This document shows positions 2,275-11,923 of a stretch of DNA of 11,923 nt, one piece after another. A program made the translations under genes and the position numbers. This stretch comes from Methanomicrobium sp. (lineage in GTDB: Archaea > Halobacteriota > Methanomicrobia > Methanomicrobiales > Methanomicrobiaceae): positions 1 to 11,923 of the forward strand of contig JAFZMT010000117.1 in NCBI GenBank assembly GCA_017553245.1, given 5' to 3'. How positions within the stretch are numbered: the first letter of the stretch is position 1; the number at the start of each line of letters is the position of its first letter. Below the pieces are notes generated by a model. The model worked only from the letters and a program-made list of their open reading frames with translations. It had not been told where the DNA came from and ran no database searches.

Positions 2275-4386
2275 ATGAGCTTTGAAGGAGAGCCTTTCTC
2301 AAAGATGACGACGCAGACGCCGTTTGGCAGGAAGAAGCGCGAGATACGTCTTCTCGATGAGGCGACGATAAATAAGATCGCCGCCGGAGAAGTCATCGAG
2401 AGACCCGCATCCGTGGTAAAAGAACTCGTGGAGAACTCCCTTGATTCCGGCGCCTCCTCTATAAGCGTGGATATCGGCTCGGACTCAACGGGCATTTTCA
2501 GAATCCGCGTCATCGACGACGGCTGCGGTATGGACCGCGATTCCGCAAAGATGGCGATACTGCGGCATGCCACCAGCAAGATAACAAATGCATCCGACCT
2601 GTTTTCGATTCACACCCTCGGATTCCGCGGAGAAGCGCTGGCAAGCATAGCGGGCGTATCGAAGTTTACGCTGATTACAAAGGAAAAGGATACAAAGGAA
2701 AAGGGGCAGTCGGGACACGGGAATTCGGGTGATTCCGGTAATTCGGGAGATCCTGCCGCGGGAACGAAGATTGTCGTTCAGGGCGGCGATATTCTGGATG
2801 TCGCCGATATCGGAGCGCCGGACGGCACCACGGTTCTTGTGGAGAATCTCTTCTTCAATACGCCGGCAAGAAAGAAATTCCTGAAGTCGCGGCAGACCGA
2901 GTTCAGCCATATCTATTCGGTTATCGAGAATGCCGCCCTTGCAAACCCCGATATCTCTTTCAGCCTCACTCATAACGGCAAAGAGAAACTCTCGACAATA
3001 CGGACGGATTCGCTCCTTGAGACCGCATCGTATATCTACGGCAGGGGAATCGCGGATGACATGTGTAAGGTAAGGTCGGCAGGCGTCTTCATGAAGATCG
3101 ACGGGCTTTGCTCGATTCAGAGGGTGAACTACCCGATATCCAAGCAGATAATCATCTCAATCAACAAGCGCCCGGTAACGTCGCAGGCGATTGTCCGTGC
3201 GGTCAAACGCGGTTACGGCACGCTTCTGCCCAAGGACAGGTATCCGGCGGCATTTCTGAATATTACGATAGACAGCGGCATTGTGGACGTCAATGTTCAT
3301 CCGGCAAAGCGCGAGGTAAGACTTTCGCGGGAGAAGGAGATAAGCGAGGAGATTGTCTCGGCAATCCGCGAAGCCCTTGAGAGCGGAAATATACATGCGG
3401 AAACCGCCCCCGCGGGTTCGGTGGCGGCGCAGACGTCCTTAATCCCTTCGGAGAGCGGATTATCGGCTGCAACGGCTGCGGGTTCAGATTCTGCCGCAAA
3501 TTCGAATGCATACCCGAATGCAAATTCAAGTGCAGGCACAGCCCGCAGTCCGAACGCGTACGGCGATGCTTTCTCCGGTTCAACGGGATTATTCTGCAAT
3601 GACAGCGGCACTGAATCCGCGAAATCCACAGAGAACAGAGATTCGGCATCGGATCTTGAATCCTCCGTAATGGCGCTATTCAGATCCGCGGGACTGAGCA
3701 ATGACGAGAGCGGCGCGGGGTATCATCCGCGGTTTACGACGACGGACAGCCAACTCAGACTGACCGAGAATTTCGATTACAGCGATTCCGATAAAGTAAT
3801 GCTTCCTCCCATGGAGGTTGTCGGTCAGTATGACGATGCGTATATCATCGCCAGAATGAAGAATCAGGACGGCGATGAGCTTGTTATCGTCGACCAGCAC
3901 GCCGCACACGAGAGAATCCTTTACGACAAGGTCTCAAAGATAAGGAACTCTAAGAAGAACTCGCAGGAACTTCTGGTGCCGTCGATAATCACCTTCAAAC
4001 CGAAGGAAGCCGCGGTTCTTACGGCGAACAGGGAATTCCTTGAGGAGGAAGGTTTCGTCATCGAAGAGTTCGGAAAGAACACGTTTGCGGTGAGAAGCGT
4101 TCCGCTCGTGCTCGGAAAGAAGATAGGTACCGAGATTTTAAGCGATATTCTGACCGATCTCATGGATGATTCAAGAAAGACCATCGAAGAGAAAAAGGAG
4201 AAGATTACGAGCACGATTGCCTGCCGCGCCGCAATCAAGGCGGGAGCGGTTCTCACGCACGAACAGATGGAGAGACTCTTGAATCAGCTTGCAAGGACCG
4301 ACCTTCCCTATACATGTCCGCACGGAAGACCGACCATGATCCTGTTTTCGAGATCGAAGCTGGATTCGCTCTTCCTTCGGAGCTGA
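2275..4386 (+). CDS. mutL: DNA mismatch repair protein MutL, endonuclease type
   Basis: This 703-aa protein couples mismatch recognition by MutS to strand incision. The N-terminal GHKL ATPase (about 23-345) shows KELVEN with catalytic Glu50 and Mg-binding Asn54, the DDGCGM motif, RHATSKI and TLGFRGEALASIA. A disordered Ala/Ser/Asn-rich linker (about 365-480) leads to the C-terminal dimerisation/nuclease domain. That domain has the metal-binding motif DQHAAHERILYD (540-551), an ACR motif near 649 and CPHGRP (681-686), so it is the nicking MutL type found in organisms without MutH. The last acidic position of the first motif is Asp where Glu is usual. ATG 2275 is preferred because AGGTGA (2266-2271) lies just before it; ATG 2305 also fits the family start but has no well-spaced ribosome site. 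It lies 39 bp after mutS and is probably co-transcribed. Confidence 0.96.
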   Translation: MSFEGEPFSKMTTQTPFGRKKREIRLLDEATINKIAAGEVIERPASVVKELVENSLDSGASSISVDIGSDSTGIFRIRVIDDGCGMDRDSAKMAILRHATSKITNASDLFSIHTLGFRGEALASIAGVSKFTLITKEKDTKEKGQSGHGNSGDSGNSGDPAAGTKIVVQGGDILDVADIGAPDGTTVLVENLFFNTPARKKFLKSRQTEFSHIYSVIENAALANPDISFSLTHNGKEKLSTIRTDSLLETASYIYGRGIADDMCKVRSAGVFMKIDGLCSIQRVNYPISKQIIISINKRPVTSQAIVRAVKRGYGTLLPKDRYPAAFLNITIDSGIVDVNVHPAKREVRLSREKEISEEIVSAIREALESGNIHAETAPAGSVAAQTSLIPSESGLSAATAAGSDSAANSNAYPNANSSAGTARSPNAYGDAFSGSTGLFCNDSGTESAKSTENRDSASDLESSVMALFRSAGLSNDESGAGYHPRFTTTDSQLRLTENFDYSDSDKVMLPPMEVVGQYDDAYIIARMKNQDGDELVIVDQHAAHERILYDKVSKIRNSKKNSQELLVPSIITFKPKEAAVLTANREFLEEEGFVIEEFGKNTFAVRSVPLVLGKKIGTEILSDILTDLMDDSRKTIEEKKEKITSTIACRAAIKAGAVLTHEQMERLLNQLARTDLPYTCPHGRPTMILFSRSKLDSLFLRS
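2676..2755 (+). repeat. short in-frame repeats in the MutL ATPase domain
   Basis: A 14-base string (TACAAAGGAAAAGG) occurs at 2676-2689 and again at 2691-2704 with a 15-bp period, giving TKEKD/TKEKG. It is followed by GAATTCGGG/GATTCCGG-like units that encode a GNSGDSGNSGD stretch. The insert sits in a surface loop between conserved strands (ending KFTLITKEK and starting GTKIVVQGG), so it probably does not disturb the fold. Confidence 0.7.
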
Positions 4387-10145: not shown

Positions 10146-10550
10146 TTATAAATATTCTTTCAATGCATTCTTTGCACTTGAGATCATAAGGTCGGCAAGC
10201 ATCGGGTTATCGCCGATGGGGCTTGCGAATACAAGCGGAACCTCGCCTTTTGCCGTCTTGAAGGTGCCTTTGTGTCCGCATTCGGGAATACCGAGGATCT
10301 CGGGAATATCCACATCAATGTGCACGCCTCTTGCAAGGAAGAGAGGGACAACGAGCATTTTGTCGATATCTTCGCTTCTGAACGTGTCGATGATCTCGGG
10401 GATTGACGGGGTGCTGTTCTCCATGAATGCGCATTTGACAATGTAGTCCTTTTCTTTCTGCGCAATCAGTTTGGCAGTGTTCTCAATAAGCTGTTTATTG
10501 TAAGGTTTTGTACTGCCGTGTCCTACAAGTAAGAATCCTGTCTTTGACAT
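10146..10550 (-). CDS. cfbA: sirohydrochlorin nickelochelatase CfbA (CbiXS type)
   Basis: This 134-aa short CbiX-type chelatase works as a homodimer and inserts nickel (or cobalt in the cobamide branch) into sirohydrochlorin, the first committed F430 step. The start reads KTGFLLVGHGSTKPYNK with metal-binding His11; the second conserved His is His77 in FLARGVHIDVDIPE. The C-terminal half has GIPECGHKG. The length matches the archaeal single-domain form. ATG 10550 has no good Shine-Dalgarno, and TATA-like boxes lie close upstream, so the message may have a very short leader. It is the first gene of cfbA-E-D-B. Confidence 0.94.
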   Translation of the reverse strand: MSKTGFLLVGHGSTKPYNKQLIENTAKLIAQKEKDYIVKCAFMENSTPSIPEIIDTFRSEDIDKMLVVPLFLARGVHIDVDIPEILGIPECGHKGTFKTAKGEVPLVFASPIGDNPMLADLMISSAKNALKEYL

Positions 10551-10574
10551 ATCATATTAGTTATTACGATATTG

Positions 10575-10602
10575 AATAAAATAGTTACTGGTTTATACTT
10601 TG
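10575..10602 (-). promoter_or_regulatory. candidate promoter of the cfb operon
   Basis: The minus strand carries two TATA-like strings: AGTATAAAC (centre near 10595, within the last codons of the upstream gene) and CTATTTTATT (centre near 10579). They would place transcript starts about 17 nt or about 3 nt before the cfbA ATG. The lack of a ribosome site at cfbA fits the short-leader option. Which box is used cannot be told from sequence. Confidence 0.4.
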
Positions 10603-11007
10603 GGCTGACGTAATTTTCAATTTTCTTCCCTGCCCGCGTTTGGCTCTCGCTCTGATAGCTCCGATTACGTCGCGGCTGGTCTGAGTTAAGCCGTGCAGAA
10701 AGATGTCAACGAGGATTGCGTGTTTTGACGCATCGTATCTGGGATTGGTGAACTCTCCGATCTCTTCGTTGAGACCGCGGGAAAAAGAATGAACTGCCCA
10801 TCCGGTGTTGTCGGCGACCTTGAATTCCGCGAGGTTTTCGGGAGTGTAGATTGTGGGGTAGCTGGAGAGCGAGTCGTGCCATTCGCCTTCGGCGAGGAGG
10901 ACGACGTTCTTGAGCTCTACCGCATCCCCGCCGTCATCGTCTCCGGCGAAATCCAGACGGTGATTGACAAGGTGTTTGACCTGTGTGGTTGCATTGGATG
11001 TGTTCAT
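10585..11007 (-). CDS. short protein resembling the N-terminus of a viral capsid-maturation (prohead) protease; probable remnant
   Basis: 140 aa. The segment from LKNVVLLAEGEWHDS through PTIYTPENLAEF, WAVHSFSRG and EIGEFTNPRYD to ILVDIFLHGLTQTSRD has the pattern of prohead-protease-like proteins of head-tail viruses and archaeal proviruses. That pattern is a strand with 'EG.W', an opening helix, a conserved His (in AVHS), then 'IG...NPRY' and a 'HGLT' strand. The frame ends in a basic tail (KRGQGRKLKITSAQS) before the place where the catalytic Ser strand is expected, and no other frame continues it. It is therefore probably a truncated gene. ATG 11007 lies about 25 nt after a TATA-like box with no ribosome site. 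No other virus gene is visible. The family assignment is from memory of patterns and is moderate; it could be a small stand-alone protein of unknown role. Confidence 0.5.
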   Translation of the reverse strand: MNTSNATTQVKHLVNHRLDFAGDDDGGDAVELKNVVLLAEGEWHDSLSSYPTIYTPENLAEFKVADNTGWAVHSFSRGLNEEIGEFTNPRYDASKHAILVDIFLHGLTQTSRDVIGAIRARAKRGQGRKLKITSAQSINQ

Positions 11008-11028
11008 TGGGGATATCTGTGCGTTCCC

Positions 11029-11036
11029 TTATATTA
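11029..11036 (-). promoter_or_regulatory. TATA-like box before the protease-like gene
   Basis: The minus strand reads GATAATATAAGG, centred about 25 bases before ATG 11007. This is the distance expected if transcription starts at or next to the start codon, i.e. a leaderless message. The absence of a Shine-Dalgarno supports this. Confidence 0.45.
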
Positions 11037-11125
11037 TCGAGTATGGTAAAATCGAATCTAATGCACTGCTGCGGGGCAACCTGTCGGAACATCGGAACTG
11101 CCGACATGTCCGATACGTTCGCACA

Positions 11126-11139
11126 TCCATACGTATGGA
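11126..11139. repeat. perfect 14-bp palindrome
   Basis: TCCATACGTATGGA reads the same on both strands. It has no loop, so it is more likely a protein-binding dyad than an RNA hairpin, or chance. Confidence 0.5.
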
Positions 11140-11178
11140 AGGCGGAACTGTTCGGAGAAAAGAAGGAGTTTTCAGTTC

Positions 11179-11227
11179 GGGCAAATTTTGCACATACTGA
11201 GACTGAGTTATTGCAGATTATGCAACA
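11179..11227. repeat. two palindromes related to the hairpin array
   Basis: GGGCAAATTTTGCACA (11179-11194) and TTGCAGATTATGCAACA (11211-11227) share the G/T-GCA-N5/6-TGCA-A/C core with hairpins 2 and 3 of the array downstream. The second differs from the hairpin 3 core in one of 13 bases (TGCAGATTATGCA versus TGCAGATAATGCA). Confidence 0.6.
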
Positions 11228-11239
11228 CTGATTTTTATG

Positions 11240-11316
11240 AACTGCCGAGTATAATTCGGCAGTTGAACTGTTGCAAAAAATACAACAGTTGAACTTGTGC
11301 AGATAATGCACAGGTT
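11240..11316. repeat. array of three 25-nt hairpins on a 26-bp period
   Basis: Hairpins lie at 11240-11264 (9-bp stem, 7-nt loop GTATAAT), 11266-11290 (8-bp stem, 9-nt loop) and 11292-11316 (10-bp stem with one G-U, loop GATAA). Each is exactly 25 nt and single G bases (11265, 11291) separate them. A G also precedes the first. The outer arms AACT...AGTT (GGTT in the third) are kept, while inner arms differ with both sides changed together (GCCGA/TCGGC, GTTG/CAAC, TGTGCA/TGCACA). The period is not a multiple of three, so the array is not coding. Confidence 0.85.
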
Positions 11317-11341
11317 AACCGGTTGAGAAGAGCTGAGAAAA

Positions 11342-11359
11342 CCCCTCGAATTCGAGGGG
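11342..11359. terminator. perfect 18-bp palindrome, possible bidirectional terminator
   Basis: CCCCTCGAATTCGAGGGG folds as a 7-bp GC-rich stem with an AATT loop. It is preceded by AAAA and followed by GTTT, so on the minus strand the stem is followed by TTTT. It could stop transcripts from 11682 that pass the nearer hairpin, or protect the hairpin array region from read-through. Confidence 0.45.
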
Positions 11360-11363
11360 GTTT

Positions 11364-11396
11364 AACCTATCAATAACCTGTCAATACCTATCAAAA
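11364..11396. repeat. three 11-bp direct repeats (iteron-like)
   Basis: AACCTATCAAT (11364-11374), AACCTGTCAAT (11375-11385) and ACCTATCAAAA (11386-11396) lie head to tail. They are surrounded by GGTTAACC, GGTTTAACC and TAACCG/CGGTTA strings. The spacing of about one helical turn would place a bound protein on one face of the DNA, as with iterons or operators. No initiator gene is present. Confidence 0.65.
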
Positions 11397-11399
11397 CGC

Positions 11400-11425
11400 T
11401 AACCGTATGTAATTGCACACGGTTA
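11400..11425 (-). terminator. hairpin after the 81-aa gene, possible terminator
   Basis: TAACCGT (11400-11406) pairs with ACGGTTA (11419-11425), and TG/CA pairs further inside the loop. On the minus strand the hairpin begins 11 nt after the stop codon of the gene at 11437-11682 and is followed by GCGTTTTGA. The T-run is short, so strength is uncertain. Confidence 0.45.
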
Positions 11426-11436
11426 AACCAAAATAA

Positions 11437-11682
11437 TTACTCGTCCCGAACCGAGAGCGTGATATTTTTTTCGAATTGTTCAACCCAAAATGCGCTTAGG
11501 GCATCCCGCTCATCCCATGTCAGTCTGTTTTTCAGTATCGCCCAGTCGCGTTCCTGATCCAAGTCATCGACGAGATCGTGCAGCTCACCCCAGAGGTCGA
11601 TGCCGCTGTTGTTTTTTTCGCGGATGAACTCAAACTCGTCAACAATCAGTTTTTTTAACAGGTTTAATTCGCGTTTGCTCAT
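11437..11682 (-). CDS. 81-aa acidic protein of unknown function
   Basis: The protein begins MSKRELNLLKKLIVDEFEF and continues with a D/E-rich, mostly helical-looking stretch (LWGELHDLVDDLDQER...LTWDERDALSAFWVEQFEKN). There is no signal peptide, membrane segment or cysteine. I do not recognise a family. ATG 11682 is chosen because AGAGGTG (11688-11694) precedes it by 5 nt; a longer frame from 11754 would run through the tRNA gene and is rejected. The gene lies 24 nt after the 3' end of the CAU tRNA with no promoter between, so it may be transcribed together with that tRNA. A small acidic protein beside virus-like sequence could be an element-borne gene, but nothing proves it. Confidence 0.75.
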   Translation of the reverse strand: MSKRELNLLKKLIVDEFEFIREKNNSGIDLWGELHDLVDDLDQERDWAILKNRLTWDERDALSAFWVEQFEKNITLSVRDE

Positions 11683-11706
11683 TGTAACACCTCTGAAAAA
11701 TGATAA

Positions 11707-11790
11707 TAGCGTCGAGAGGATTCGAACCTCTGAAGCTTTCGCACTCCGGATCATGAGTCCGGCGGGATGACCAAGCTACCCCACGACGCT
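11707..11790 (-). tRNA. tRNA with CAU anticodon, Met (initiator-like), long variable region
   Basis: 84-nt cloverleaf: acceptor AGCGTCG/CGACGCT with discriminator A, D-arm GGGTAGCTTGGTCATCCC, anticodon stem CCGGA/TCCGG with loop CTCATGA (anticodon CAT), and T-arm AGAGG-TTCGAAT-CCTCT. The A1-U72 pair and the D-arm resemble archaeal initiator tRNA, but the anticodon stem lacks the full GGG/CCC run. The variable region has 14 nt (AGTGCGAAAGCTTC) instead of the usual 5 or so. It could be a genuine odd Met tRNA, an Ile2 tRNA read after C34 modification, or a decayed copy. No CCA is encoded and no clear TATA box lies at the expected distance. A T-run (ATTTTTC) follows the 3' end. Confidence 0.85.
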
Positions 11791-11804
11791 GAAAAAAGTG
11801 AACT

Positions 11805-11821
11805 GTCCGGAATTTCCGAAC
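11805..11821. repeat. 17-bp inverted repeat upstream of the CAU tRNA
   Basis: GTCCGGAATTTCCGAAC has 8-bp arms with one mismatch around a central T. It lies 15-31 bases before the tRNA 5' end, where a promoter would be expected, so it could be a binding site or the end of a transcript hairpin for the gene ending at 11837. Confidence 0.45.
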
Positions 11822-11836
11822 ATTTGGAAAAGTGGT

Positions 11837-11923
11837 TTAGTCTTTTGAGACTTTTATGTCTTCGTAGATTTCCGGAGGATATTTGCCTATTTTATCCGGG
11901 TGGTGCGCATCCCACATAAACCG
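11837..11923 (-). CDS. C-terminal end of an unidentified gene
   Basis: The last 28 codons of a gene that begins beyond the window: ...FMWDAHHPDKIGKYPP...EIYEDIKVSKD, then TAA. The composition (Pro/Tyr/His-rich motif, charged tail) looks like real coding sequence and the frame is open to the window edge. I cannot name a family from this fragment. The tRNA 5' end lies 46 bp downstream. Confidence 0.6.
   Translation of the reverse strand, partial: RFMWDAHHPDKIGKYPPEIYEDIKVSKD

Follow-up and report, generated by a model that had tools for sequence, protein, structure and literature searches.

A phased array of 25-nucleotide palindromes in Methanomicrobium sp. belongs to a dispersed hairpin family that may serve as recombination joints in phages and mobile elements

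The origin of the joints in mosaic phage genomes has long been argued, with random illegitimate events on one side and short shared boundary sequences on the other; the latter, also called linker sequences, are short stretches of shared DNA found at the borders of phage modules. Short hairpins that are often paired or clustered, and mostly intergenic, are familiar as the REP, BIME, and REPIN sequences, of which the REPs are host-chromosomal and lineage-bound, bear a GTAG-like foot, and have TnpA-REP as a partner. In the attC sites of integrons, which have the core GTTRRRY, the arms vary but pair. The Rickettsia palindromic elements (RPEs), as set out in part of the published account, are specific to Rickettsia, measure 105-146 bp, lie between genes and also fused in frame within protein genes, and are thought to be mobile (PMC2229807). 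Perfect inverted repeats of up to 284 bp have been described inside the protein genes of nematomorph mitochondria, according to an excerpt of that study (PMC6649704).

The locus considered here lies in the window, by which we mean the whole 11,923-nt stretch of Methanomicrobium sp. DNA that was analyzed (contig JAFZMT010000117.1), from an assembly of 1.39 Mb in 244 contigs that is 74% complete. Three 25-nt inverted repeats occupy positions 11240-11316 with a period of exactly 26 nt, a single G standing before each of them (11239, 11265, and 11291). This is the layout reported in an initial annotation of the sequence, except that the first hairpin starts at 11240 rather than at 11239. The conserved AACT/AGTT outer arms described there are present in units 1 and 2, whereas unit 3 has AACT/GGTT. 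The covariation of the inner arms, also pointed out there, is borne out: the inner pairs number 5/5, 4/5, and 5/5 in units that differ in sequence, and the total of 14/15, with one C-A mismatch in unit 2, has a P of ~1e-5 by base composition. The hairpins of this region are listed below; no strand is assigned to them.

11173..11199: degenerate hairpin CAGT...ACTG, a possible decayed unit, recognized by eye; a 28-nt, 93% copy is present in G002:C9
11206..11229: degenerate hairpin AGT(TA)TTGC...GCAA(C)ACT, a possible decayed unit, recognized by eye in the sequence alone
11240..11264: hairpin unit 1, AACTGCCGAGTATAATTCGGCAGTT, built as 9+7+9, with arm type GCCGA/TCGGC (type 1); the same 18 arm letters occur in 16 viral stretches
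11266..11290: hairpin unit 2, AACTGTTGCAAAAAATACAACAGTT, with arm type GTTG/CAAC (type 2) and the C-A mismatch beside the loop; the perfect type occurs in 73 viral stretches
11292..11316: hairpin unit 3, AACTTGTGCAGATAATGCACAGGTT, with arm type TGTGC/GCACA (type 3) and outer arms AACT/GGTT (one T-G), followed by A; the perfect type occurs in 12 viral stretches
11401..11424: hairpin AACCGTATG...CACACGGTT, terminator-like on the - strand, a weak look-alike in sequence whose relation to the family is uncertain
11801..11825: fourth unit, AACTGTCCGGAATTTCCGAACATTT, 10 nt from a tRNA gene, found by a match to covariance model R1 and by the strict scan (both below)

That these are unrelated inverted repeats which look alike by chance is a reading to which we give very little credence. 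Short palindromes are certainly common, and at a loose threshold the window's 11 units compare with a mean of 4.8 weak look-alikes (range 1-9) per window in 20 resamples. A strict scan, which demands at least 7/8 outer letters and at least 4/5 inner pairs, finds four units in the window (11240, 11266, 11292, and 11801) against a mean of 0.24 and a maximum of 3 in 400 order-1 resamples, none of which has two strict units on the 26-nt period. The linker and arm controls given below for viral copies argue against chance as well.

Like the REP, BIME, and REPIN sequences, the palindromes are short, clustered hairpins situated mostly between genes; unlike those of the REPs, their feet are AACT/AGTT rather than GTAG-like, and many of their carriers are phages or elements of diverse hosts. 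With attC they share AAC and GTT at the ends and variable arms that pair, and they differ from it in forming one continuous 9-11-bp stem of 25 nt that has no bulged bases. The unit junctions at 11265 and 11291 read GTTGAAC on the + strand and, when the junction sequence alone is compared, fit the attC core, a match with odds of 1/1024 per site at equal base frequencies that may be a coincidence. Unlike phage boundary sequences, they constitute a single palindromic family with near-constant outer arms, which is spread across hosts and domains and also found inside genes. As with the RPEs, family members lie both between and inside protein genes; set against the partial account cited above, however, they are 25 nt long, occur with one type in all three codon phases, are carried by phages and archaea, and stand in tandem on a 26-nt period, and are thus not classed as RPEs. 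The coding palindromes of Nematomorpha are likewise perfect repeats within genes; those in the excerpt cited reach 284 bp and belong to animal mitochondria. A CRISPR array was rejected because the 17 nt between the constant 9-mers, the would-be spacers, are self-complementary; the best CRISPR model scores 17 bits, where the gathering score is 35. Searches of the open-access literature returned no recognized description of these palindromes, in agreement with the earlier remark that no named element has this layout. The full cores of two arm types are absent from the same body of text, in which only a 12-nt fragment matched, in two papers.

The layout recurs in viral contigs. A scan with a pattern made up of the outer arms and the G linker only, the inner arms being left unspecified, gave 50 stretches, 34 of them distinct; at least 7/10 inner pairs are formed in 28/50 (20/34 of the distinct ones), a level that a random stretch reaches with a probability of 0.037. 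When the linker is A, none of the nine stretches found has 7/10 pairs or more and none exceeds 4/10; when it is 2 nt long (87 stretches, 80 examined, 66 distinct), at least 8/10 pairs are formed in 7/66, compared with 17/34 for the 1-nt linker, so that arrays with the longer linker do exist but are the minority. The perfect arm types of the window occur in 16 (type 1), 73 (type 2), and 12 (type 3) viral stretches; one pair-breaking control gives 3. Of the 73 stretches, 15 or more are close relatives of one gp32-like gene. One viral contig (L038) has the first two arm types of the window (ACCGAG.../GTTGC...) in the same order and at the same spacing, with an imperfect first unit. A covariance model (R1), built from 20 distinct viral arrays that had themselves been selected for pairing, scores the window at 43.5 bits (E 5.4e-10); this score is partly circular, in its outer-arm share, because the outer-arm search pattern came from the window. 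Judged by outer arms, G linker, and 26-nt period, units 1 and 2 agree exactly with the family and unit 3 with one T-G, a comparison that is again circular; judged by recurring self-complementary inner-arm types, the array belongs to it on the counts just given. The circular part aside, the membership of the window array in a recurrent hairpin family is firm. The outer arms of this family, AACT/AGTT, are nearly constant, its self-complementary inner types form a limited set, and it is carried by phages and mobile elements of bacteria and archaea. BLAST of one array retrieved 47 phage records at E <=1, including Vibrio, Escherichia P1, Mycobacterium, and Synechococcus phages, and the known hairpin carriers include phages of Vibrio, enterobacteria, Mycobacterium, and Synechococcus. 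At a permissive threshold (E <=10), two frequent arm types are found at 3086 places in 1602/5426 E. coli genomes. The exact three-unit pattern has one match in genome contigs, at 4595-4680 of L085 from Mycobacterium sp. GA-1199, where three tandem GAACTGCGAATCGAACTGGAGCAGTT-like, near-identical units share the 26-nt period; this array is not counted as the same family because its five inner positions mostly do not pair.

The initial annotation had named a lack of homologous arrays elsewhere as evidence that would weigh against it; both arrays and single copies do occur elsewhere. Within the genus, perfect single 25-nt palindromes of arm types 2 and 3 lie between ORFs in three genomes (G000, G002, and G004), type 2 at G000:C56, G002:C4, and G004:C107, and type 3 at G002:C5 and G002:C9. 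The gene before the single palindrome is presumably rubrerythrin in all three; on the far side, G000 and G004 have what we take to be elongation factor 2, and G002 has a transporter-like ORF. Further palindrome copies are present elsewhere in G002. For the unit at 11801-11825, both G002 and G004 contain 29-nt copies (97%) elsewhere. No empty site came to light for the archaeal copies. Across the order, the arm pattern AACTNNTGC-N7-GCANNAGTT matched 6/232 genomes, three of the same genus in which the match is palindromic and three in which it is not, and a reversed control of the pattern matched nine genomes, which places the rest of the order at control level; the covariance model has matches in 93/231 genomes of the order at E <=0.1. 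By eye, an apparent partial 3' end of rubrerythrin is seen across the hairpin from the gene at 1400-1490 of L007 (G002:C4). Five identical copies of AACTGACAATCTGATTTGACCAGTT, on either strand, were observed in G001:C1 (at 173379, 565338, 881328, 1105938, and 1130506) and are perhaps the ends of another mobile element.

Copies inside genes indicate that the conserved entity is DNA. The TCCGG type is translated as TIRTFRIV, NYPDIPDS, or ELSGNSG in different genes, which amounts to three codon phases, and the use of all three by one arm type therefore points to a DNA element. On the same ground, a peptide motif T-x6-V (in RhuM and linkers) was rejected as the general cause; the GTTGC type is mostly read as TVAxxATV in the longest viral ORFs, many of which are relatives of one another. 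We consider it quite improbable that the array is transcribed and that its hairpins act as RNA, be it as a terminator cluster, a decoy, or a small RNA. The 271 nt at 11160-11430 do fold better than 200/200 shuffles, in a test that also takes in a GC-rich, terminator-like hairpin (11338-11363) ~21 nt beyond the array, as might be expected of an RNA element. However, the two strands fold equally well (z -6.15 and -7.03), and the unpaired inner cells of the viral arrays comprise 5 G-T, 4 A-C, and 20 others, so that there is no sign of one strand folding as RNA. The use of all codon phases by coding copies runs against this explanation too, as does Rfam, in which no family reaches its gathering score for the array or for five viral loci, the tRNA alone passing within 10500-11923. 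Of the selection on a folded form proposed in the earlier annotation, the part concerning a folded or palindromic form is supported, and the part concerning RNA is not.

In RhuM genes the palindrome has a constant position, about codon 70 (L105-L133 and L135-L164). Among 29 loci fetched from model matches (L105-L133), 25/29 overlap a RhuM match by manual comparison of coordinates, and the RhuM family is present in 73/230 genomes. In the 30 best-scoring RhuM loci, taken regardless of hairpins, 9/9 pairs are formed in 25, 8 in 4, and 7 in 1; synonymous recoding predicts a mean of 5.98/9, two mis-registered loci included. This codon test is modest for each locus (P 0.001-0.17), being weakest for the TIRKFR types, whose amino acids themselves favor pairing, and the loci share ancestry. 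The amino acids change in matched pairs, as in IRKFRI, VKEYLT, VRQYLT, and IKDYLI. A fold conserved in RhuM genes, with codon choice as its built-in control, offers an independent way to approach the selection that maintains the fold. Alternatively, each hairpin could be the putative operator of a DNA-binding protein dimer; RhuM, for instance, might bind within its own gene as well as at dispersed sites. Such an explanation would accommodate the fixed place in RhuM genes, the perfect dyads with their mostly AT-rich centers, and the single sites between genes; we nevertheless regard it as unlikely, given that the five inner positions are free to vary while remaining paired, unlike those of one operator, that the phage hosts are unrelated, and that G000 (74% complete), G002, and G004 have hairpins and no detectable RhuM. 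Because the same three genomes of the genus carry hairpins without a RhuM match, decayed RhuM genes were rejected as the sole source. As a separate observation, the RhuM coding segment keeps its DNA palindrome across methanogens and E. coli despite the matched amino-acid changes, and the feet of the hairpin are inverted (AGTT...AACT) in SVVKEYLTT alleles. RhuM is entered in PADLOC as the candidate defense gene PDC-S05. Some of its models there (PDLC04861, PDLC04881, and PDLC04864) extend no further than about residue 88 or start only at residue 68, as if the gene were often split near the hairpin.

The main rival to a function in recombination is self-mobility, in which a 26-nt unit or a whole array would be copied to new sites by a transposase or recombinase, in the manner proposed for the RPEs, and tolerated between genes and in linkers. 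We think this somewhat unlikely, though it accounts for several findings. Arrays that are 98.7% identical, over 78 nt in L026 and L070 and over 79 nt in L025 and L034, sit in flanks that do not align; L077 has one extra 25-nt unit relative to L079 in DNA that is otherwise ~90% identical; and all three codon phases are used. Against it, no clean empty site with a target duplication was found with the one phage query employed, MalagasyRose, which matched only that phage itself; no enzyme gene traveling with the unit came to notice; and some copies change type at constant length. Related gp32-like tails of similar length differ in the hairpin segment with no obvious gap (every third of 120 tails), and insertion of the hairpin into such a tail was rejected. 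Because the hairpins of the gp32-like tail and of RhuM vary without obvious change in length, some copies are neither insertions nor joints.

Homology breaks at hairpins are seen in several comparisons of E. coli prophage and P1-like regions. The loci L087 and L088 are 95% identical over 226 nt rightwards from a point 2 nt left of a hairpin, and nothing aligns for 413 nt to the left of the hairpin, beyond which there is a 119-nt shared block. In L089, a match of 98.7% to phage P1 (L082) begins 4 nt left of the hairpin, with no continuation further left, and extends over 2 kb. The homology of L091 and L092 begins inside another hairpin. From L087 position 2188 rightwards, L087 and L089 have only 46 and 32 nt in common, at two hairpins. 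The break between P1 and L091/L092 falls 13 nt left of the hairpin and not at it. With L087:2200-2737 as the query, the left alignment end lies at most 7 nt from the left edge of the hairpin in 31/60 evenly sampled records; in the same records, left ends also cluster at 97-98 (11/60) and right ends at 351-356 (23/60), away from hairpins, and the set contains few independent joints because its rows share ancestry. Among the names annotated where these matches fall are DUF551, dATP/dGTP pyrophosphohydrolase, and ead/Ea22 proteins. L368 has an annotated pseudogene that ends at 703, followed by a hairpin from 705 and, 16 nt behind that, by a second one. Proteus and Salmonella phages have only 51-53 nt of array in common with a Morganella phage (701-nt query). 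In an all-against-all comparison of viral contigs (859 directional alignments), 267 alignments cover a hairpin with flanks of <40 nt on either side; flanks of 40 nt are reached on one side in 56 and on both in 386, with 147 missing the hairpin and 3 others; alignment ends near hairpins are partly forced in this set because it was chosen for hairpins, and it includes related contigs. When an empty site was sought for a Vibrio phage, most of the 40 listed relatives aligned only as far as the end of ssb, ~20 nt before the hairpin.

We therefore see an about even chance that the window array is a cluster drawn from a dispersed family of 25-nt DNA hairpins that act, most likely, as short recombination joints. 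This joint function is the best-supported account, and it can overlap with self-mobility. A palindrome common to otherwise unrelated modules would serve as the joint, at which phage or element recombination would link the modules through single-strand annealing on 25 nt of homology; cutting of an extruded hairpin or cruciform is an alternative for this step. We infer that the hairpin brings the joint about and does not simply tolerate it. If the module between two joints were lost, the hairpins would be left side by side, and arrays could be built in this manner. A more far-reaching form of the proposal, which we advance as a doubtful conjecture, is that one structure-recognized hairpin family provides, in bacteria and archaea alike, a common joint at which temperate phages and mobile elements exchange modules and domains, by way of a putative dedicated enzyme that would read the AACT/AGTT feet and the fold instead of the inner sequence, arrays like the present one being stacks of emptied joints. 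A recognizable 25-nt palindrome at the joints of phage mosaics would make the question of their origin countable and testable.

The surroundings of the array in the window comprise the following features, with no strand assigned to the segment as a whole.

10597..11923: segment with no counterpart found at this position in the sisters; homology to G002 and G004 runs only as far as 10596, and the contig ends at 11923
10585..11007, - strand: orphan ORF of 140 aa, with no match in Pfam, PHROG, viral contigs, or 38 protein candidates
11707..11790, - strand: tRNA-Met gene (CAT) inside the segment, also matched by RF00005

To the left of the array, the genes have the Pfam domains CbiX, Oxidored_nitro, and GATase_3 and are taken by us to form the coenzyme F430 cluster. 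DNA homology with the two closest sisters (G002 and G004), whose cfbA-like proteins are 99% and 97% identical to that of the window, stops at 10596, and with three more distant ones at 10556; G002 and G004 have a different ORF at this place. Because of these stops, the array sits in a segment absent from the sisters' locus, which holds the orphan ORF, the array, a small ORF, and the tRNA. The element-like origin suggested in the annotation gains support from this absence, whereas its neighboring virus-gene remnant (ORF 10585-11007) does not: as the ORF is without relatives in Pfam, PHROG, the viral contigs, or the 38 protein candidates, its viral origin is unproven. Comparison with the sister genomes shows no joint at the array of the window itself; synteny breaks off ~640 nt from it. 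By analogy with the viral and E. coli copies, the segment's absence in the sisters, the tRNA neighbor, and the stacking of arm types at the family spacing suggest a joint role for this array, and the archaeal copies may work in the same way as the others. On the best reading, dispersed hairpins that are recombination joints or mobile have built up here in a tRNA-linked segment peculiar to this lineage.

Two smaller features adjoin the array. The hairpin at 11338-11363 is near-perfect, GC-rich, and terminator-like on the - strand, and it is a possible transcript end for the small ORF at 11437-11754 or for the tRNA. At 11363-11394, a direct repeat of ~11 nt (TAACCTATCAA), present three times, separates the array from this small ORF.
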